NCBI GenBank assembly: GCA_002255955.1
Contig: NKIM01000003.1
Span: forward strand, 62,001-126,000
DNA from: Burkholderiales bacterium PBB2
GTDB taxonomy: Bacteria; Pseudomonadota; Gammaproteobacteria; Burkholderiales; Burkholderiaceae_C
Length of the DNA: 64,000 nt
Reading direction: 5' to 3'
A program made the position numbers and the translations under genes. Position 1 is the first letter of the stretch. Each line of letters starts with the position of its first letter. Under the pieces are notes generated by a model. The model was not told the DNA's origin. It saw only the letters and a program-made list of their open reading frames with translations, and searched no databases. Below, one piece after another: positions 11,656 through 20,610 of the stretch.

Positions 11656-12369
11656 TCAGACCACCGAACGACGGCGACGGGCCAGCAGACCAACCGCCCC
11701 CATGCCTGCCAGCATCAGGATGTAGCTGCTGGGCTCCGGCACCGGCACGGCCACCAGGGCGTCGACCGAGCTTTCAAAGGCTGCTTCGCTCAAGCCGCGG
11801 TTGAAGACGATGTAGAAGGAGTCGGAGGCCGCGTAGTCGTCCGACTTCAGCTTCAGCTCGATCAAGTAGGCGCCCACAGGTGCGTTGGGCGTCACCGACA
11901 TCTTCAGATGGTCATGGATGGTGCCGGCCGCGGAAACCTCGGAGACATACTGAGTCTCACCCTGGCTCACACCCCCGAGGGTCCAGGTGGTCGGCGCATC
12001 CTGGTAGACATCAGCGATGGTCACGCCAAGGCCGGCCGACGGGGTGCCCCAGTTCGCGCCATTCCAGAAACTCAGGGCACCCAGGCCCTCGAAGGAGATC
12101 AATGCGCCCGGCTTGAGCACGCTTCCGGCCTGGGTCTGAAAGCCGGGGTCCTTGGTGGCCCAGGGGCCGCTGGCGAGGTCACCGAAGTCGGCTTCGTAAA
12201 TGTTGAAGCCGGTCACCCCGTGGGTTTCAAAGTGCGAGCCACCAAGGACCAGCTTTCCGTTGAGGGCAGAGACGGCAATATCGCCCGCATGGTCTTCACC
12301 TGCTGCGGCCCAGACCGGCAGCACGGCAAGGGCCGCAAAGGCCAGCTTGATAGACAGTTTCTTCAGCAT
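11656..12369 (-). CDS. all3515-like PEP-CTERM surface protein, copy 1 (probable Zur regulon)
   Basis: The 237-residue product has a signal peptide (LAFAALAVLPVWAAAG), a ~175-residue beta-rich domain and a PEP-CTERM tail (PEP at 211-213, hydrophobic segment, RRRR). PEP-CTERM proteins are processed by exosortase. The domain has H27, H46 and H50 and a HDH motif (152-154) followed by PVGAYLIELKL and FYIVFNRGL. It resembles the all3515 family, described as Zur-repressed in cyanobacteria, and the actinobacterial zinc-transporter-associated HxH wall repeats. I infer extracellular zinc binding. The start ATG has an AGGGGA 7 bases upstream. A 17-bp dyad at 12441-12457 lies in its promoter region. It is paralogous to the next two minus-strand genes. 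Confidence 0.8.
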   Translation of the reverse strand: MLKKLSIKLAFAALAVLPVWAAAGEDHAGDIAVSALNGKLVLGGSHFETHGVTGFNIYEADFGDLASGPWATKDPGFQTQAGSVLKPGALISFEGLGALSFWNGANWGTPSAGLGVTIADVYQDAPTTWTLGGVSQGETQYVSEVSAAGTIHDHLKMSVTPNAPVGAYLIELKLKSDDYAASDSFYIVFNRGLSEAAFESSVDALVAVPVPEPSSYILMLAGMGAVGLLARRRRSVV

Positions 12370-12440
12370 GAACAATCCCCTAACAGTGATTTCAGATGGA
12401 AGGCATGGATCGATTTGAGGGTAAGAAAACCCCATTAATT

Positions 12441-12457
12441 ATGCAACTCACTTGCAT
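12441..12457. promoter_or_regulatory. Candidate Zur-type operator 1
   Basis: The dyad ATGCAA-CTCAC-TTGCAT lies 72-88 bp upstream of the first all3515-like start codon. Its reverse complement matches 16 of 17 bases of the dyad at 15492-15508. A Fur/Zur-family gene is encoded 8 kb away in the same cluster. The half-site differs from the enterobacterial Zur box, so the assignment to Zur is inference from context. Confidence 0.7.
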
Positions 12458-12469
12458 TTAAATGGTCGA

Positions 12470-13213
12470 TCACCCCCTAATTGAAGGGTCCGCTCTGCGC
12501 CCCGCCGAATGGCGCCGCAAGACGCCCCACAGCAGCAGCAAACCCAGGAGCCAGACGCCAGCCGAGGCCGGCTCGGGCACCGGCGATGCCTGGATGAAAG
12601 CTTCGCGCGCACGCAGGAAGGCTGCCTCATCCAGGCCGCGGTTCAGGATCATGTAGAACGGGTCAGAGCTCAGGTAGTCCGCTGAGTTCAGACGCAAAGT
12701 GATCTGGTAGGCACCGACCGCGGCACCTTCGGTGATCGAGAACACCAGGTGCTCATGCAGCTTGCCGGATGCGCTGGTTTCCCCCAGCAACTGGCTGGCC
12801 CCCGGGATCACCCCGACGGACGACCAGATACTGTCCGCCTCCAGGTAATCGGACACCTTCAGCTGCGTGCCGTCCGGAGCCAGGCTCCAGCCAGCACCGT
12901 CCCAGAAGCCGAGCGCGCCCAGGCCTTGGAAGCCGATCTCCACCCCAGGCTTGAGCCGCTCGCTGCCCTGAGTCTGGAAACCGGGGTTGCTGGTGGCCCA
13001 AGGGCCGTGAAAGAGATCGCCGAGATCGGCGCGGTAGATGTTGAAGCCCGTGGAGGCCTGAATCTCGACCCGCTGCCCGCCCAGCTTCAGCTGCCCCTCG
13101 CGGGCGAACACGGCCACATCGCCGGCGTGGTCAGCTGCCCAGGCCGATGCCGCCGCGCTTGCAACCAGCAGGCCTGCGCCTAAGCCTCGAAGCATCGTTC
13201 TTGTTTTCATCAT
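12470..13213 (-). CDS. all3515-like PEP-CTERM surface protein, copy 2
   Basis: About 247 residues and clearly paralogous to copy 1: shared DHAGD after the signal peptide, TGFNIYRADLGDL, GPWAT, NPGFQTQ, an HEH motif where copy 1 has HDH, then VGAYQITLRLNS and PFYMILNRGL. It ends in VPEPAS, a hydrophobic segment and arginines, a PEP-CTERM anchor. The start at 13213 follows AGGAAAGG; an upstream in-frame GTG (13225) is less likely. It lies 54 bp after the stop of the repeat protein on the same strand, so it is probably transcribed from the dyad-bearing promoter at 15.5 kb, while copy 1 has its own operator. Likely extracellular metal, probably zinc, binding. Confidence 0.78.
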   Translation of the reverse strand: MMKTRTMLRGLGAGLLVASAAASAWAADHAGDVAVFAREGQLKLGGQRVEIQASTGFNIYRADLGDLFHGPWATSNPGFQTQGSERLKPGVEIGFQGLGALGFWDGAGWSLAPDGTQLKVSDYLEADSIWSSVGVIPGASQLLGETSASGKLHEHLVFSITEGAAVGAYQITLRLNSADYLSSDPFYMILNRGLDEAAFLRAREAFIQASPVPEPASAGVWLLGLLLLWGVLRRHSAGRRADPSIRG

Positions 13214-13267
13214 TCCTTTCCTCACTCCTCACTCAGTCAAATCAAACACAAAACCAAACGCTCCGAC

Positions 13268-15478
13268 TCAGCGGCGCGGACGCTCCCAGGGCAGCTGAAC
13301 CGACGGGGTCCAGGGCGAAGTCGGCGCACGCGCCGGCGGCAAGGGTTTGACCGGTGGCGGTTGACACAGCGCCTCGGTCGCCTCGCTCCAGCGGCCATCG
13401 GTGCAACGGAAGCTGGCCGAACCGGTGTTGGGCGCCAGGCCATCCAGCAACTGAAGCTGGCTGCCCGAGGGACTGGCGGGCGCCGTCGCCTCGCAGCGCT
13501 CGCCCGCTTGCACCCAGCTCAAGGCCTGCGCCGCACAGGGCTTGGGCGCTGGCGCCTGGCAGCTGGCTTCGCTGGCGCCACCCCATTGCCCTTGCTGGCA
13601 GGCAAAGCGAGCAGAGCCGGTCAGCGGCTCCTGCGAATCCACCGCCCCACGGCTGCTGCCGGACGCCGTCTCGGGCAGGACGGCGCTGCAGACCAAGCCA
13701 CCGAGATCCCAGCTCAGCATGCGGCTGGGGCAGGCTGGCGGAAGTGCTTCGCTGCAACGGGGCGCAGTGCCGGAGGCGCTCCAACGCCCATCGCTGCAGA
13801 GGTAGCTGGCCTGACCCGTGGTCGGAGCCACGCTGTCCAGCACGGTTTGCGTCGCCCCCGAGGCGGCCGCGAGCAAGCGGGCCGAGCAACTGGCGCCGGT
13901 CTCACTCCAGCTGACGGCTTGCGCAGGGCAAGCGGCCAAGACCTGCGGCGCGCAACGGGCTCGCAAGGGCCCGCTCCAGCGGCCGTCCTGGCAGCTGAAG
14001 CTGGCATCGCCCACTGAAGGGCCCGTCTGATCAAACAGCTGCTGCTCTGCGCCCGAAGGTGCCGCCGCGGCGCTGGCACTGCAACTGTGGCCATCCACCG
14101 TCCAGCTCAAGCTCTGCGCCGTGCAGGCTGCCGGCGGCGGCAGGGCACAGCTGGCAGCCGATGGCGCGCTCCATTGGCCGCTGCGGCACTCGAAGCGAGC
14201 CGCACCGGTGGCGGGCGCCTGGCGGTCTTCGACCTGCACGCTCGAGCCCGAGTTCGTTGCGCCGGCGGCGCCCGAGCAGCTGACGCCACCCACGCTCCAG
14301 CTCAGCTGCTGCGCCGCGCAGACGGGAGGTGGCGGCACCGCACAGCGGCTTTGGCTGGGGGCACTCCATTGCCCCGCCAGGCAGCTGAAGCTGGCCTCAC
14401 CCACAGCGGGCGCGAGGCTGTCACTCAGCACCACGCTCTGCCCGGACTCGGTCCGCAGGGCGGCGGCACTGCAGCTCTGGCCCTCCACCGTCCAGCTCAG
14501 GGTTTGCGCCGAGCAAGCGGACGGAGGCGGCAGGCTGCAGCTGGCTTGGCTGGGCGCCCCCCAGCGGCCACTGCTGCAGCTGAAGCGCGCGCTGCCGGTG
14601 GCTGGGGCAATCGCGTCCTCGAGGGTGATCGTGGCACCCGAGGCCGCCTCCTCCGCGGTGGCCGAGCAGCTCGCCTCGCCCACCGACCAAGTCAAGGTCT
14701 GGCCGGCGCAGGGCGGATTGATGCGCGCCGCAAAGGCCTGCTGCATCTGCTGCGTGTTGATGCCGGCCTCGAAGATGACGTGGAAGGGCTGGGAGGCCAG
14801 GTACTTGGGCTGGCCCGCGACCAGAACCGGAGACCACAGCTCCAGGGTCACCAGATAGGCGCCCACCGGTGGTGTGCCACTGCTGGCCGAGATCTTCCAG
14901 TCGAGGTGGGAATGGAAGGTGCCGCCGGTCTTGGTTTCATCGATCAAGGCCGTCAGCGGGCCGGCAACGCCTTGCAAATCAAAACGCGTGCCCGCGGCAT
15001 AGTAGGCGTACTGGTCTGCCCAAAGCGTGGGATTGGTGCTGTAGCCCAGCACCACTTCGGGCGGGATGCCGCCGAACAAAGTGATCTTGACGCCCGTTGG
15101 TGCAGCACCCCATTTGCCGGTCGCGGGCGACCAGTACTGCAGGCGGCCGAGGGCCCGAAAGTGGATCTGCTCCCCCGACGTGAACCATCCGGTGAAGGCC
15201 TGAAAGCCAGGGTTGGCCGTGGCGTATTTGCCACCAGGAAAGTCACCGAAATAGGCTGGAAACAGGCGATAGCCCGTGAGCCCGTCGATGGGCAGCTGCC
15301 CCGCCAAGCCGAGGTCGCCGTAAAAGTCGGTCTCGATGCGACTGCCCGCCACCGGGCCTTTGTCGGTGCGCAGCTCGACGTCGAAATGCTGCGCCCAAGC
15401 ACTGCCCCCCAGACCGGCGAGCGCCAAGCCAAGAAACCCGGCCCGCAGCAGATGGGCAAGCACAGCGAAAGCGGACAT
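13268..15478 (-). CDS. Large all3515-like protein with seven four-cysteine tandem repeats
   Basis: The 736-residue exported protein (signal peptide ending GGSAWA) has an N-terminal domain (~30-250) paralogous to the two PEP-CTERM neighbours, with TGYRLFPAYFGDF, NPGFQ, an HSH motif (189-191), PPVGAYLVTLEL and PFHVIFEAGI. Residues ~255-707 are seven tandem repeats of ~64 residues, pattern C-AQ-LSW-...-SCS-...-SG-...-P-TG-A-F-C--G-W---...-C, with four cysteines each (28 in all). The C-terminus is Pro-rich and has no PEP-CTERM or membrane anchor. I do not recognise the repeat as a named domain; its spacing recalls disulfide-bonded sushi-like modules. Its promoter region holds two candidate Zur operators shared with the divergent TonB receptor gene. 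Confidence 0.8.
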   Translation of the reverse strand: MSAFAVLAHLLRAGFLGLALAGLGGSAWAQHFDVELRTDKGPVAGSRIETDFYGDLGLAGQLPIDGLTGYRLFPAYFGDFPGGKYATANPGFQAFTGWFTSGEQIHFRALGRLQYWSPATGKWGAAPTGVKITLFGGIPPEVVLGYSTNPTLWADQYAYYAAGTRFDLQGVAGPLTALIDETKTGGTFHSHLDWKISASSGTPPVGAYLVTLELWSPVLVAGQPKYLASQPFHVIFEAGINTQQMQQAFAARINPPCAGQTLTWSVGEASCSATAEEAASGATITLEDAIAPATGSARFSCSSGRWGAPSQASCSLPPPSACSAQTLSWTVEGQSCSAAALRTESGQSVVLSDSLAPAVGEASFSCLAGQWSAPSQSRCAVPPPPVCAAQQLSWSVGGVSCSGAAGATNSGSSVQVEDRQAPATGAARFECRSGQWSAPSAASCALPPPAACTAQSLSWTVDGHSCSASAAAAPSGAEQQLFDQTGPSVGDASFSCQDGRWSGPLRARCAPQVLAACPAQAVSWSETGASCSARLLAAASGATQTVLDSVAPTTGQASYLCSDGRWSASGTAPRCSEALPPACPSRMLSWDLGGLVCSAVLPETASGSSRGAVDSQEPLTGSARFACQQGQWGGASEASCQAPAPKPCAAQALSWVQAGERCEATAPASPSGSQLQLLDGLAPNTGSASFRCTDGRWSEATEALCQPPPVKPLPPARAPTSPWTPSVQLPWERPRR

Positions 15479-15491
15479 GAATCAATATTTA

Positions 15492-15508
15492 ATGCAAATG
15501 AGTTGCAT
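15492..15508. promoter_or_regulatory. Candidate Zur-type operator 2
   Basis: The dyad ATGCAA-ATGAG-TTGCAT is 14 bp upstream of the repeat-protein start codon, in the divergent promoter region shared with the TonB receptor. It is embedded in an AT-rich stretch (AATATTTA, ATATAATAAT) that can supply -10 elements for both directions, in contrast to the GC-rich surroundings. Confidence 0.7.
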
Positions 15509-15514
15509 ATAATA

Positions 15515-15531
15515 ATGCAAGTTGCTTGCAA
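15515..15531. promoter_or_regulatory. Candidate Zur-type operator 3
   Basis: A second dyad, ATGCAA-GTTGC-TTGCAA, lies 23 bp centre-to-centre from operator 2, about two helical turns, which would put both bound dimers on nearly the same face. One outer base departs from perfect symmetry. It is on the TonB-receptor side of the divergent region. Confidence 0.6.
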
Positions 15532-15612
15532 GTAACCAAACACCTCAACAGCACGCATTCCCGCAGAGGCGACCGCTCGTTGTGCAACCCGGGCCCGACG
15601 CCTTCAGACTCG

Positions 15613-17820
15613 ATGAACGCCAACCTCGCAAACCCGTGCCGGGCGCAGCAGCTGCTGCCTTTGGCCTTTCTCCTGCACGCCGCGGCCAGCTGGGCCCAGA
15701 ACACTCCCGCCGAGCCCAGCAAAACCGAGGCGCAAGCTCTGCCCACGGTCAAGCTGCAGGGGCGGCAGCAGCGCAGCTCGGAGCTGGCCGGACCCACCAC
15801 CCAGCTGAGCGGCGACGAGCTGCGCAACAAGGCCTCGGCCACCCTGGGCGCTACTTTGCAAGATGAACTGGGCGTGGCTAACTCCAGCTTCGGGCCCAAT
15901 GTTGGCCTGCCCATCATCCGCGGCCAAGGCGGTTCACGCGTCAAAGCCCTGGTGGGCGGCGGCGGCGCTCACGACGCCTCCACCCTCAGCGCCGACCACG
16001 GCGTGATGGTCGAAGCCGGTCTGGCGCAGAGCATCACCGTGCACCGTGGGCCCTCGGCGATCCGCCATGGCGGCGACGCTATCGGCGGCGCGGTTGAGAT
16101 CGAGTACGGCCGCATCCCGGAGCAGCGCCCAGTAGGCCTCAAGCTGCAAAGCGAAGGCCGCGCAGGGGGCGGCGGCACCCTGGGCTTGCTACGCGCCCAG
16201 GGCGGCTGGGTCGGGTCCGCAACGCCGGACGGCAACGAGGGTGCCAGGCCTCGCAATGGCTGGGCCTGGCATCTGGACGCCCATGGGCGGCGCAAGGATG
16301 AGGCCCGAATCCCGGGCTGGGCCATCGATGAAGAGGCGGTCAAACAACAGTTCTTCCTGGTCAGCGGCCGCAACACCTGGGGCCACATTCCCAACAGCGA
16401 CGCACGCAGCTCGGGCGGCGCCGCGGGTCTGAGCACCGTCTTTGATGCTGGTTATGCCGGCGTCTCGACAGCCACCATGCGCATCAACTACGGCCTGCCT
16501 CCGGGTGCCCATTCGCACAACCATGGCGGCGGCAGCTCGCCCCCGGGCGAACCGGCTGAGCCCGCCATCCGCATCCAAGCAGAGCAGCAGCGCCTGGACC
16601 TGAAATCAGGCATCAAGCTCGGCGGCGCTTGGGCCCGAGAGCTCAAGCTGCACCTGGCCGACACCCGCTACCGCCACGACGAGCTGAACCAAGGCGTCAG
16701 CGAGACCGAGTTCCGCAACGAGGTGCAGGAAGGCCGGCTGGAGCTCGAACACAGTCTGGCCCCTGCGCACTGGGGCAGCCTGGGGCTGCATCTGCAGAAT
16801 CGGCGGTTCTCGGCCCTCGGCCTGGAGGCTTTTGTGCCCCGGACCCGAATCGACGGCGCCGCCCTTTACGCCATTCAAGGCTTGAAACAGGAGAACTGGA
16901 CCCTGGAGCTGGGCCTGCGCGCCGACTGGCGCCGCAGCCGCCCCCAGCCTCAGGCTTCCAGCTTCGGCATCGAGGTGCAACTGCCCGAGCGGCGCTTCAC
17001 CTTCGGCAACCTCTCGCTGGCCCTGACTCGACAGCTCGGCGATGGCAGCGTGAGCCTGACGCACTGGCGCGCCAGTCGCGCACCCGATGTGCAAGAGCTG
17101 TACGCGCTGGGGCCTCACATCGCCACCCGCACCTATGACTTCGGCAACAGCGCGCTGCGGCTCGAGACCCTGCGCGGCTGGAACCTGGCGCTGCGCCAGC
17201 AATGGGGCAGTCTGGGTTTTCAGGCCAATGCCTTCCGCTACGACAGCGAGGACCACATCTACCAGCGCAGCATGGGCGTCTTCTACGCGGCCGAGAAGAA
17301 GCAGTTTCGCGCCCTGTGCGCACAGCTGGATCAATGCCTGCCAGTGACGCGCTACGAGCAAGAGCATGCCCGCTTTCACGGCTTTGAGGCCGAGCTCAAG
17401 CAAGAGCTGCTCGATCTGGGCGCAGAAGGCGCCGCCGGCGACAGCCTACAGCTCTCGCTGCTGGGTGACCGGCTGCGCGGCCGCCTGGACCGCCTGGGCC
17501 AGGACGTGCCGCGTCAACCCGCCCCGCGCTTGGGTGTACGCCTGGAGCTGCTGCGAGGCCCCTGGCAGGCCGAGCTGCGCCGCATGCACAGCCTGGCCCA
17601 GCGCCACCCGGGTGAGAACGAGACTGACACCGCGGCATCGACACAGTGGCACGCCTCGCTGCGCTGGAGCGGTCGCCTGGATACCGGCCTGCAGCTCAGC
17701 ACTTATGTGCTGGGCCGCAATCTGAGCAATCAGGAGGTGCGCAACAGCACTTCCTTCCTGCGCAACTACGCCCCCGAACCCGGCCGAAGCATTGAGCTGG
17801 GCGCCGAACTGAGGTACTGA
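15613..17820 (+). CDS. ZnuD-like TonB-dependent outer-membrane receptor (probable zinc uptake)
   Basis: About 735 residues: a signal peptide (LLPLAFLLHAAASWAQ), a plug domain (~40-170; PIIRGQGGSRVKAL, VHRGPSAIRHGGDAIGGAVE) and a 22-strand-type barrel ending in ELRY with the usual C-terminal aromatic. A histidine-rich extracellular-type loop, NYGLPPGAHSHNHGGG (H300, H302, H304), resembles the metal-capturing loop of zinc receptors such as neisserial ZnuD. Context agrees: divergent from HxH proteins, two shared dyads, and a Fur/Zur gene downstream. It would import zinc or a zinc complex using TonB/ExbBD energy; those genes are not in the window. The start at 15613 is set by the signal peptide. 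The lipoprotein gene follows after 3 bp. Confidence 0.85.
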   Translation: MNANLANPCRAQQLLPLAFLLHAAASWAQNTPAEPSKTEAQALPTVKLQGRQQRSSELAGPTTQLSGDELRNKASATLGATLQDELGVANSSFGPNVGLPIIRGQGGSRVKALVGGGGAHDASTLSADHGVMVEAGLAQSITVHRGPSAIRHGGDAIGGAVEIEYGRIPEQRPVGLKLQSEGRAGGGGTLGLLRAQGGWVGSATPDGNEGARPRNGWAWHLDAHGRRKDEARIPGWAIDEEAVKQQFFLVSGRNTWGHIPNSDARSSGGAAGLSTVFDAGYAGVSTATMRINYGLPPGAHSHNHGGGSSPPGEPAEPAIRIQAEQQRLDLKSGIKLGGAWARELKLHLADTRYRHDELNQGVSETEFRNEVQEGRLELEHSLAPAHWGSLGLHLQNRRFSALGLEAFVPRTRIDGAALYAIQGLKQENWTLELGLRADWRRSRPQPQASSFGIEVQLPERRFTFGNLSLALTRQLGDGSVSLTHWRASRAPDVQELYALGPHIATRTYDFGNSALRLETLRGWNLALRQQWGSLGFQANAFRYDSEDHIYQRSMGVFYAAEKKQFRALCAQLDQCLPVTRYEQEHARFHGFEAELKQELLDLGAEGAAGDSLQLSLLGDRLRGRLDRLGQDVPRQPAPRLGVRLELLRGPWQAELRRMHSLAQRHPGENETDTAASTQWHASLRWSGRLDTGLQLSTYVLGRNLSNQEVRNSTSFLRNYAPEPGRSIELGAELRY

Positions 17821-17823
17821 CCC

Positions 17824-20109
17824 ATGGCCCGCCACCGCGCACATCCACCGCTGACGCTGCACCAAGAGCGCCCCACCCTGCACCGCGCCTTGCACCGGAC
17901 TTTGCCACTTTGGCAGTTGCAGCCACAGCTGCGCCTGAGCGTTCTAGCGGGCGCCCTGTGCCTGGTCGCCTGCGGCGGAGGCAACACAGTGGACGAGCCT
18001 GCATCCTTCAAGCTGCTGCCCGACGACTTGGTGGGCGCGCCTTGCGCTGGCTGCCGCGAGGGCTTTCTGATCGGGCAGGCGCATGACGGCGTGGCCTTGG
18101 CCGATGCCGATGTGCTGCTGATTGACGCGCAAGGCCAAACCGCCCGAGGCCGCACCGATGCGCAAGGTCGTTATGCCATTGCCACCACCGGACTCAGCGG
18201 CGCCCTGCTGGTGCAGGTCAACGGCCTGAGCAGCGGCGAGCCGGTGCAGTTGCACTCGCTGGCCGTGGCCGTGGATGTGGGCAACCGCGCCGTCCATGTC
18301 TCTCCCCTGACCGAGCTGATGGCAGCCTTTGTGCTCGGCGGCGCACCGCAGGACCTGCTGCAACAGGGCCGAATCGACTTCATGCGCATCAACGCCACCA
18401 GCTTGCGCAGCGGCCAGGACCGGGTTCGCAATCTCGTCGATTCGTCCTGGGCGGTGATCGCCGGCGCCAGCGCTGCAGCGCCCGATCTGCGCAACGGCGA
18501 GCAAGGGCCGGCCCACCAAGGCATAGGAGCGCTGGCTTCTTTGATCGAGCTGCAGCGCGTGGCCTCTGCCTACCGCCTGAGCGGCGTAGCAGGCGATGCC
18601 GCTGCCCAGGCCGGCGTGCAGGTGGACCCGGTGGCCTCCAGCGTTGACGCGGTGCTGCCTGCGCCCAGCACAGCCCAAGCGACGGCACTGCAGGCAGGGT
18701 TGGCGGCTTTGCCGGACTTGGAGCAGTCGCTGGCGCGCTTCAGCCAGCTGTTTCAGAGCGACCAGGCGCCCAATGCCCCCGAGCTGCAGGCCTGGCTGGC
18801 ACCGGAGTTTCGCCACACCGGGCTGGACGCCGCAGCCTTCATCGACCAAGTTTTGCTGCAAACCGAGCCGGGCGAGGCGCCCGGCAGCAGCCTGCGCGGT
18901 GTGCGCTTTGAGCGGCCACGTCTGGTGCAGGTTGACAGTGCGGATCGACTGCGAGTGCGCGTGCAGCTGAGCCTGCCGGCCCCGGCCCTGCCGCGCAGCG
19001 AGACGATGTGGATGCGCAAGGTCGGCGACCGCTGGCTCTGGGAGGGCGATGGCCAGACAGGCCTGGTGCGTCTGCGCCATCTGTCCATCCTTGGGCCCAA
19101 GCCACGCGAGGCCGCCGATCTGCTGGCCTTGCCGGGCATGCGTTGCGCCGCCAGTGGGGCGGCAGACACACGCTGCGCCGTCGAAGGTGGCCAGGGCGAT
19201 GCGCCCAGCGGCGGCCAGCTGGACTACGGCAGCCCGCAAGGCGAGCAGTTCGGCCTGCTGGCCCATTACCGCTCCGAGGCCGGCAGCTGGCAAGAGCGCC
19301 TGCAGATGGCGCGCCAGCGCACGCGGCTCTTGGCCACGCCCAGCGCTCAGGTCAGCCAACATCTTGCGTTTGAGGTGGACGCCCGCCGCATCGACCCACG
19401 CGTCAGCCAGGTGCGGGTGCAGGGCACCGGCCTGCCCGAGCAGGGCCTGAGCCTGGTGCGCCCGGCCGAAGGGCAGGGGTTCGAACAGATGACCCTGGCC
19501 GACAGCCCGGAGCAGGACTCGCATGCCCTGCGCACCGACCGCTGCCCGGGCAGCGGCAGCAGCGCAGCCGAGCACACGGTCTGCCAGGCAAACTGGGCCA
19601 AGGCTCAGGTGGGCGAGGTCTACCGATTCAGTTTCTTCGATGCCCAGGGTCGCTTGCTGCAAACCCAAACAGCGCGTCTGCCCGCCCCACCCGCGCCGGC
19701 GGCGCAGTTGCAGGCCCAGGCTTCGCAGTGGTTCGCGCGTTTCGATTTGCAAGCGGAGCCGGCGCAGCAGCCGCTCTACGCCCGCGTGCTGGACCCGGAG
19801 CGCCGCCAGCAGGCGCTGGACTATCGCTGGGCCTGGCAAGCCCCCAAGGGCGCCTCACAGCAGCTGGTGGGCGCAAAGTTGGAGCTTCATTGGGGGCACC
19901 CCGAGACCGGGGCGCAAGGTCAGCTGCAACTGCCGCTGAGTGCCCGAAGCCTGCACGCAGCAGGAAGCCACTTGCTGCCAGCGCAGCTCTTGCCGACAGC
20001 GGCCCTGCCCACGGGCGCCCTGCCGGTATGGCTCAGCGCCCGCCTGAGCAGCCGCGACGCTCAGGGCAATCTCTATATGCACTACATCGCCCCGAACAAC
20101 CCCTTCTGA
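17824..20109 (+). CDS. Large lipoprotein co-transcribed with the TonB receptor
   Basis: 761 residues. A lipobox LVAC (C50) followed by GGG marks a lipoprotein. The ~35 residues before the hydrophobic core are long and basic, so the true start may be downstream of 17824. After the lipobox, a segment at ~75-130 (GQAHDGVALADADVLL, TDAQGRYAI) resembles a carboxypeptidase-regulatory-like beta-sandwich. The rest (~150-760) is Ala/Gln/Leu-rich with no recognised domain and a few cysteines. It begins 3 bp after the receptor stop, so it is almost certainly in the same operon and may be a surface or periplasmic partner of the receptor, in the manner of lipoproteins paired with TonB receptors. That role is inference. 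It converges on the zur-like gene. Confidence 0.72.
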   Translation: MARHRAHPPLTLHQERPTLHRALHRTLPLWQLQPQLRLSVLAGALCLVACGGGNTVDEPASFKLLPDDLVGAPCAGCREGFLIGQAHDGVALADADVLLIDAQGQTARGRTDAQGRYAIATTGLSGALLVQVNGLSSGEPVQLHSLAVAVDVGNRAVHVSPLTELMAAFVLGGAPQDLLQQGRIDFMRINATSLRSGQDRVRNLVDSSWAVIAGASAAAPDLRNGEQGPAHQGIGALASLIELQRVASAYRLSGVAGDAAAQAGVQVDPVASSVDAVLPAPSTAQATALQAGLAALPDLEQSLARFSQLFQSDQAPNAPELQAWLAPEFRHTGLDAAAFIDQVLLQTEPGEAPGSSLRGVRFERPRLVQVDSADRLRVRVQLSLPAPALPRSETMWMRKVGDRWLWEGDGQTGLVRLRHLSILGPKPREAADLLALPGMRCAASGAADTRCAVEGGQGDAPSGGQLDYGSPQGEQFGLLAHYRSEAGSWQERLQMARQRTRLLATPSAQVSQHLAFEVDARRIDPRVSQVRVQGTGLPEQGLSLVRPAEGQGFEQMTLADSPEQDSHALRTDRCPGSGSSAAEHTVCQANWAKAQVGEVYRFSFFDAQGRLLQTQTARLPAPPAPAAQLQAQASQWFARFDLQAEPAQQPLYARVLDPERRQQALDYRWAWQAPKGASQQLVGAKLELHWGHPETGAQGQLQLPLSARSLHAAGSHLLPAQLLPTAALPTGALPVWLSARLSSRDAQGNLYMHYIAPNNPF

Positions 20110-20118
20110 GGCGCTGGG

Positions 20119-20610
20119 TCAACGCAGCTTGGCCTGTGGCTGCGTGCCGCAGTCGGCACATTGGCCGTGCACGTTCAGATCAACCGCCGCCACGGCAAAG
20201 CCCTCGGGCACCGCCGGTTGGCGCGGCGGCTTGGCCGGCAGGCAATAAACCCGGCCGCAATCATCACAGTGGAAATGGGCATGGCCCTGGTGCTGAGCAG
20301 CCTGCTGCATCAAGGCGTAGCGGCTGACCCGGTCGTCACCAACGGCCTTGCTCAGAACTCCGGCCTCAGCGAGGGCGTCGAGGGTGCGGTAGAGAGTGAC
20401 CGCATCGATGGCCTGGGGCAACTCGGCTTCGATGTCTGCGTGGCTGAGCGCACGGGTGGCCTGCTCAAACACCGCCAGCACGGCCAAACGGTTGGGCGTG
20501 ACACGCAGGCCAAGGGTGGCCAGACGCTCCCGCCGCGCCTCCAGCAGCGCCTCTTCTTGTGGGGCACGGGCAGGGGCGGACGGGCTGGCACTGGGCTTGC
20601 GTGTCTTCAT
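20119..20610 (-). CDS. zur: Fur-family metalloregulator, probably Zur
   Basis: The 163-residue protein has a winged-helix domain (LGLRVTPNRLAVLAVFEQA through DAVTLYRTLDALAEAGVL) and a C-terminal dimerisation domain. Two CxxC pairs (C115/C118 in CDDC, C151/C154 in CADC) form the structural zinc site, and HGHAHFH (110, 112, 114) supplies regulatory-site histidines. Fur-family membership is certain. Zur rather than Fur or PerR is inferred from the neighbouring zinc-type receptor and HxH proteins and from the repeated dyads. It lies 46 bp after the S9 peptidase stop on the same strand, with a UUCG-capped hairpin (20630-20645) in that gap, and no dyad of the cluster type is seen before it. Confidence 0.85.
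   Translation of the reverse strand: MKTRKPSASPSAPARAPQEEALLEARRERLATLGLRVTPNRLAVLAVFEQATRALSHADIEAELPQAIDAVTLYRTLDALAEAGVLSKAVGDDRVSRYALMQQAAQHQGHAHFHCDDCGRVYCLPAKPPRQPAVPEGFAVAAVDLNVHGQCADCGTQPQAKLR

Follow-up and report, generated by a model that had tools for sequence, protein, structure and literature searches.

Three exported histidine-motif proteins, an outer-membrane receptor, a lipoprotein and a Fur-family regulator are encoded side by side in the genome of Burkholderiales bacterium PBB2, and the question that this locus raises is whether they form one system and, if so, for which metal. The island occupies positions 11656-20610 of the stretch analysed (hereafter the window: 64,000 nucleotides, part of contig C83 of the 5.48-Mb genome), with the genes of the exported proteins P3, P2 and P1 following each other on the minus strand, the receptor and lipoprotein genes running divergently from P3, and the regulator gene (minus strand) closing the far end. 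We consider it likely (at a probability of roughly 0.8) that the island is a Zur-controlled zinc-starvation module for the cell surface and the outer membrane. The preliminary description of this DNA had already seen in it a single zinc regulon: the Zur-type control and the ZnuD-like receptor of that proposal stand, while the kinship of the exported proteins with All3515 and with actinobacterial wall proteins, a PEP-CTERM anchor on all three of them and a dyad at znuABC do not. In what follows, proteins of the P1 and P2 type are termed ZP1 and those of the P3 type ZP3; genes in relatives were called with a crude, purpose-made open reading frame (ORF) caller working without annotation (some of their names being given by eye), and the locus sets L058-L069 and L139-L218 overlap (several members are evidently the same contigs), so that loci are not independent.

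Operator-like dyads and the Fur-family regulator

The two promoter regions of the island carry three copies of one dyad, as first described: dyad 1 (ATGCAACTCACTTGCAT, 12441..12457), a predicted Zur box ahead of P1, and dyad 2 (ATGCAAATGAGTTGCAT, 15492..15508), between P3 and the receptor gene, match ATGCAA-N5-TTGCAT exactly, and dyad 3 (ATGCAAGTTGCTTGCAA, 15515..15531), in the same intergenic region as dyad 2, has one mismatch. The exact pattern occurs twice in the whole genome, both times in the island, and since base composition leads one to expect 0.03 such sites the pair is beyond chance. Allowing one mismatch brings the genome-wide count to four (the three island dyads and C64:13261, which falls on the start of an MBL-fold-like gene, named by eye, and within the short gap that separates this gene from its neighbour); the two one-mismatch sites are thus the number that chance gives (1.6 expected). 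Dyad 3 is therefore convincing only by its position, its start lying 23 bp from that of the exact dyad 2, and because all three dyads recur at matching places (two exact, one with one mismatch, with changed sequence around the P1 site) in a Rubrivivax metagenome-assembled genome (MAG; locus L139). Among named relatives this MAG is the nearest that was found; its receptor is 90% identical and its island is identical in kind of content. At up to two mismatches the genome holds 89 sites versus 4 for the reversed control pattern, and many of the two-mismatch matches listed belong to an interspersed repeat with CTGCAGGGCGCTTGCAT that is present on many contigs. A TATAAT sequence (15508-15513, by eye) sits between dyads 2 and 3, so that a bound repressor would cover a putative promoter there; the promoter scan returned 1 promoter-like site versus 0.4 expected, and the terminator scan 6 terminator-like sites versus 5.9 expected, one of them being dyad 3 itself.

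The identity of the presumed operator is suggested by a 17-bp palindrome, ATGCAACNNNGTTGCAT, predicted in 2004 as the Zur box ahead of znuABC-zur in two Desulfovibrio species (PMC545781). Dyads 1 and 2 each differ from it at one position, and at related genes in relatives the palindrome is identical to it in every letter. Such letter identity argues against a different metal (manganese, iron, cobalt, copper or nickel, with a Mur-, PerR- or Irr-like regulator and a receptor for a metallophore or haem), which we regard as improbable, and so do the genes at which the dyad recurs. Across eleven genomes, chosen for their P1 relatives and including that of the window, 110 forward sites with at most two mismatches were found versus 16 for the reversed pattern. 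Among the 15 listed sites with no or one mismatch (those of G005 and G274 left aside), 12 lie in the island or at a regulator of the same clade as that of the window, a DksA, COG0523, ZIP-ZrgA or ZepA gene or a TonB receptor gene, and three have no link to zinc (one within a gyrB-like gene, one past the end of a lactate-racemase-like gene, both named by eye, and one unclear). DksA and COG0523 genes follow a Fur-family gene with two dyads in L102 (by Pfam) and likewise in L098 (by eye), a dyad is found at a ZIP-ZrgA-ABC ATPase-FtsX run in L099, another with two mismatches at MerC in L101, and further ones at TonB receptors in L104 and L107. Furthermore, 5 of the 7 true ZepA genes (ZepA being the All3515 family) in these genomes have a dyad with at most two mismatches 55-156 bp upstream, and among loci with ZP1, ZP3 or ZepA such a dyad is present in 12/56, versus 0, 1, 0 and 0 for four control palindromes. 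A single 7.3-kb contig (L103:440-7296) holds tandem Fur-family genes behind dyad-like sites, two COG0523-like genes and ZepA.

The regulator (20119..20610, minus strand) belongs to the Fur family, matching PF01475 at 52.1 bits (cut-off 23.1) and having the two cysteine pairs first reported for it (CDDC within HGHAHFHCDDC, and CADC). In a tree of 65 Fur-family rows it falls into a 12-row clade with support of 100/98; besides the rows of the window and L139, 8 of the other 10 have a dyad, a COG0523 gene or a ZrgA gene nearby (in L133 a two-mismatch dyad only), and 10 of the 11 genomes hold a regulator of this clade (G274 holds one from the E. coli Zur group). With clade-mates linked to zinc genes and two of the three dyads lying one mismatch from the predicted Zur box, the Zur-type control put forward in the preliminary description is supported, and we propose that this Fur-family protein encoded at 20.1 kb is a Zur of a beta-proteobacterial subtype.

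Several observations weigh against this proposal. The regulator reaches 38.6 bits on the NCBIfam Zur model NF008646 (cut-off 167), its top NCBIfam score is on a ferric uptake model (48.2 bits of 220) and its best match in the PDB is the ferric uptake regulator 9IRE (E 3.2e-10), followed by E. coli Zur 4MTD (2.3e-7); the top NCBIfam score and the best PDB match would also suit the other-metal explanation. Since single-sequence scores are nearer to ferric uptake regulators, the assignment to Zur rests on operator and context. The clade rows of L134 and L136 have neither dyad nor COG0523 within 1.5 kb on each side, the regulators of the window and L139 form an outer branch of the clade on a long stem, and in G175 and G052 the Fur-family gene closest to the module is of a third subtype. 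As to the operator, dyad 3 stands three mismatches away from the Desulfovibrio box, that box is itself a prediction, 2 of the 7 true ZepA genes have no dyad and 44 of the 56 ZP1, ZP3 or ZepA loci lack one of the present type.

Two further Fur-like genes were noted in the genome of the window. One (L071:8936-9355, contig C65) is of a different subtype, MERxxRQR, and has, by eye, an ABC system and a TonB receptor as neighbours; in Methyloversatilis and Aquabacterium a regulator of this subtype adjoins the ZP1/ZP3 module. The other (L002, and L072:3126-3470 on contig C34) is a second copy whose match is interrupted by a stop codon, about 1 kb ahead of a TonB receptor-like ORF (by eye).

The receptor and the exported proteins

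The TonB-dependent receptor (15613..17820, plus strand; its ORF is open from 15526, the likely ATG at 15613 being chosen by eye) bears the histidine-rich loop first described (HSHNH, within GAHSHNHGG), and its comparison with ZnuD holds up. It matches the NCBIfam ZnuD model NF038289 at E 2.7e-64 and 218 bits (cut-off 950), and by that model the predicted protein is a relative of ZnuD and not ZnuD. ZnuD (4RDR) is its sole PDB match at E 1e-10, and an alignment of eleven receptors retrieves ZnuD as the sole PDB sequence at E 1e-20 (5.7e-108). The high-affinity zinc site of ZnuD is printed as D90/H100/E340/H499 (PMC4557270), and our alignment fits D99 as the first ligand; D99, H100, E340 and H499 would then correspond to D128, H129, E357 and H502 of the receptor (a manual count on the alignment, in which HSHEY fixes an offset of 14) and are kept in 11, 10, 11 and 11 of the 11 receptors. 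The loop HSHNH matches the HSHEY cluster of ZnuD and is partly kept (H at position 302 in 10/11, and at 304 in 6/11). A haem receptor model (TIGR01785) also matches the receptor (71.5 bits, cut-off 316.85), as a system for another metal might have it, but the retained ZnuD ligand set speaks against that alternative. The receptor thus shares with ZnuD the ligands and a histidine-containing extracellular loop and differs from it in its low model score and in belonging to a subfamily that often travels with ZP1 and ZP3. Three bp past the receptor stop (17820), as noted before, begins the gene of a putative lipoprotein (17824..20109, plus strand; lipobox-like LVAC, by eye), which has no NCBIfam family. 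Among the loci examined, homologues of it follow the receptor gene in L139, L140 and L141 and partly in L215; it may have a role in the zinc module.

The three exported proteins are paralogues with HxH motifs (IHDH, LHEH and FHSH), as the preliminary description had it. P1 (11656..12369, minus strand) has an ORF open from 12435, and the ATG at 12369 suits a signal peptide (by eye); P2 (12470..13225, minus strand) is 49% identical to it and P3 (13268..15478, minus strand) 33%, the likeness of P3 to P1 and P2 lying in its first 260 residues (34% to P1). Alignments of ZP1 and ZP3 match as profiles at E 3.4e-51. Anchoring through PEP-CTERM, earlier ascribed to the exported proteins in general, is clear for P1 (PF07589, 35.8 bits, cut-off 20.7); for all three proteins it was rejected, P2 scoring slightly below the cut-off (18.6 bits) and P3 showing no PEP-CTERM in the Pfam scan. 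The genome contains two exosortase matches. In P3 the place of the PEP-CTERM is occupied by seven repeats of about 65 residues with four cysteines each (13268-14713), which look complement-control-like by eye, have no Pfam match and were otherwise seen, among the loci examined, in L139 only.

The residues of P1 that may hold a metal (H49, D52, H174 and H176, counted from 12435) are invariant in 13 sequences; in 40 ZP1 sequences the HxH is invariant and the first histidine and the aspartate are kept in at least 90%, and in 10 ZP3 sequences the HxH is again invariant. An alternative is that P1-P3, although made at zinc limitation, bind no zinc, have a structural part at the surface or in a biofilm and leave zinc uptake to the receptor. 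In favour of this, PEP-CTERM proteins often belong to the matrix, the end of P3 consists of cysteine-rich repeats, and the confident AlphaFold2 model of P1 is mostly strand (predicted local distance difference test 93.7, predicted template-modelling score 0.89) with pilins among its weak nearest matches. The same side gains from the first histidine being absent in 2 of the 10 ZP3 sequences (L063 and L066). This absence also weighs against our main reading, as does there being no solved fold near P1 in the PDB, where the model has one match at E <=0.001 (best 7.6e-4, template-modelling (TM) score 0.31-0.35) and TM stays at or below 0.39 among the matches listed. We nevertheless hold this alternative to be unlikely, if more probable than a system for another metal, because HxH in all 13, 10 and 40 sequences together with the near-invariant histidine and aspartate of ZP1 resembles a ligand set, and because of the tight linkage to a ZnuD-like receptor described below. 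Copper proteins (7mek and 9c14, E about 0.08-0.1) are also among the weak fold neighbours of P1, a point in favour of another metal.

The exported proteins had been likened to All3515 of Anabaena. ZepA, as this family is called, is indeed an exported PEP-CTERM protein under Zur control (shown in Anabaena, elsewhere predicted) whose neighbourhood, too, contains a Fur-family gene, TonB receptors, COG0523 genes and other PEP-CTERM proteins (PMC10957091), so that P1-P3 could be diverged ZepA proteins and the island another ZepA system. ZepA moreover occurs in 13 of 80 receptor loci (12 of these with both ZP1 and ZP3), and a short C-terminal stretch is faintly alike. The ZepA motif H-X2-9-H-F/Y-H, however, is found in 0/13, 0/10 and 0/40 ZP sequences (three alignments) versus 15/15 ZepA, and without the PEP-CTERM the ZP and ZepA profiles match at probabilities of 2.8% (48 columns, ZP1) and 6.2% (31 columns, ZP3), so that the threshold by which ZepA is delimited (an identity of 35% or more across 75% or more of the length; PMC10957091) is not reached. 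Given the absent signature, the unalignable mature regions and the presence of ZepA beside both families in 12 of the 80 loci (in L063 ZP and ZepA proteins stand in one cluster), membership of ZP1 and ZP3 in ZepA was rejected, and we consider a diverged ZepA system very improbable, the least probable of the alternatives. What distinguishes the present system from ZepA is another family, other conserved histidines and three paralogues (one without PEP-CTERM) beside a ZnuD-like receptor.

Kinship with the zinc-associated wall proteins of Actinobacteria, also suggested at first, was not borne out, no NCBIfam family of that kind matching the 40 ZP1 members at E 0.01 (the actinobacterial anchored-repeat wall proteins being of TIGR03769 type). 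Apart from PEP-CTERM-type and a few weak matches, these 40 members have no Pfam or NCBIfam family, and none was found for the ZP3 part (Pfam: the proteins of the window, L139 and L060; NCBIfam: the protein of the window only). Relatives of P2 sought in viral contigs yielded none. Within the reach of the libraries and profiles searched, ZP1 and ZP3 therefore form a separate protein family, as judged from sequence comparison.

Linkage across relatives and a possible natural fusion

Matches to P1 at E 0.001 are present in 56 of 300 genomes of the order, mostly through the PEP-CTERM tail alone. In the twelve loci fetched by similarity to P1 beyond that tail, the receptor is present in 11 (not in L059), a dyad with at most two mismatches lies at the module in 7, and L069 has ZP3 without ZP1. 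A search that started from the receptor found 95 relatives, of which 80 were kept (some contigs end inside the stretch); ZP1 accompanies the receptor in 50 of these loci, ZP3 in 53, both in 48 and either in 55, these figures leaning upward since the query receptors were picked through P1, which lessens their weight for our reading. A Fur-family ORF is found in 33 of the 80 loci (26 of the 55 with ZP1 or ZP3, 7 of the 25 others). The loci with the module include those of Methylobacillus, Methyloversatilis, Nitrosomonas, Methylobacter, Aquabacterium and Rubrivivax.

Both the regulator and the palindrome beside the module differ between these groups. In Methyloversatilis and Aquabacterium the regulator belongs to the MERxxRQR subtype. 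Nitrosomonas has one from the E. coli Zur group, and there the neighbouring regulator of module locus L201 scores best on the Zur model NF008646 (91.6 bits, cut-off 167), a further argument against a metal other than zinc; a Methylobacter receptor locus without ZP1 and ZP3 (L163) has a regulator with 141.7 bits on this model. Other palindromes, counted without a control, are TGATAT-N3-ATATCA (9/34 loci) and TGCGAC-N5-GTCGCA (7/34) in Nitrosomonas and others, and TGTTATA-N-TATAACA in two Methylobacter MAGs, the last of which resembles the enterobacterial Zur box. As regulator subtype and operator differ by group, the module seems to stay while both of them change.

In one relative the linkage appears to have gone as far as fusion. 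A single stop-free frame of 2,134 codons (L060:3226-9627, minus strand, on a contig of 877,947 bases) contains a ZP3 domain, passenger repeats, an autotransporter barrel and the plug and barrel of the receptor, with a third-position G+C of 0.72-0.81 throughout, no N and no obvious signal peptide ahead of the plug (by eye); an unfused ZP/receptor set (L061) is present in the same genome. If real, this predicted chain would join two outer-membrane barrels in one polypeptide, the alternative being an assembly error. A ZP3-receptor fusion and the close linkage of the separate genes speak against purely structural exported proteins, and agree with a module in which P1-P3 and the receptor act on the same metal.

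A candidate system for zinc capture at the cell surface

Under the zinc-starvation reading, the putative Zur would in zinc-replete cells occupy the three dyads, all of them overlapping AT-rich stretches that resemble promoters, and would thereby block the P3-P2-P1 genes and the receptor-lipoprotein genes. At low zinc it would release them, and P1, P2 and P3 would be exported to the cell surface, bind zinc through an N-terminal H-x-x-D and the later HxH and raise the zinc concentration beside the ZnuD-like receptor, which would carry the metal inward through its conserved D-H-E-H site. We put the binding of zinc by ZP1 and ZP3 and their direct feeding of the receptor at about even odds.

From there, zinc might cross the inner membrane via a ZIP protein or the ABC system encoded beside a second ZnuD-like receptor gene elsewhere in the genome. 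The genome contains one ZIP gene and five COG0523 matches (two of them strong); no match to ZnuA or ZrgA was found in it. Its seven weak ZepA matches are not convincing, the highest-scoring one reaching 26.4 bits over positions 153-274 of 275. A dyad had been expected at znuABC elsewhere in the genome: this expectation failed, with no match to ZnuA and no dyad near the two strong COG0523 matches, the ZIP gene or a second ZnuD-like receptor in the stretches read (ribosomal-protein paralogues were not searched for), which counts against the zinc reading. As far as looked at, a dyad regulon outside the island was accordingly rejected for this genome, no dyad lying by the other zinc genes read. 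The second ZnuD-like receptor gene (L070:7822-13295, contig C42) stands beside genes for DUF3299, an FtsX-like permease and an ABC ATPase; permease and ATPase are of the types that adjoin ZrgA in L099, and L070 itself has neither a ZrgA match nor a dyad.

Compared with described systems, the predicted Desulfovibrio regulon has ATGCAACNNNGTTGCAT ahead of znuABC-zur (PMC545781), whereas in the window the similar dyads lie at genes for surface proteins and a receptor, in a genome without a ZnuA match. In the beta-proteobacterium Cupriavidus metallidurans the Zur targets listed are zupT, a TonB receptor, cobW1-3 and dksA1 (PMC6103462); ZIP and COG0523 genes occur here too, but surface zinc proteins are not part of that listing. 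For ZepA, the way in which zinc is delivered is stated as unknown, with an outer-membrane receptor being proposed (PMC10957091). Searches among open-licence papers found nothing relevant on PEP-CTERM proteins with TonB-dependent receptors, zinc or HxH, and, for ZepA from 2024 on, the original paper alone.

Taken together, these observations would fit a broader proposition, to which we give an evenly balanced chance: that ZP1 and ZP3, independently of ZepA, constitute a second and so far undescribed class of surface proteins that capture zinc and directly feed a ZnuD-type receptor, and that their pairing with it is old enough to have outlasted two or more exchanges of regulator subtype and operator among groups of bacteria, with a fusion into one polypeptide in one lineage. 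Exoprotein and receptor genes that are physically tied, and once fused, give a concrete pair on which to ask how zinc is handed over at the cell surface. Moreover, a likely function is thereby suggested for a protein family that yielded no model of its own in the Pfam and NCBIfam scans, and the Zur box predicted for Desulfovibrio would be extended into the beta-proteobacteria.

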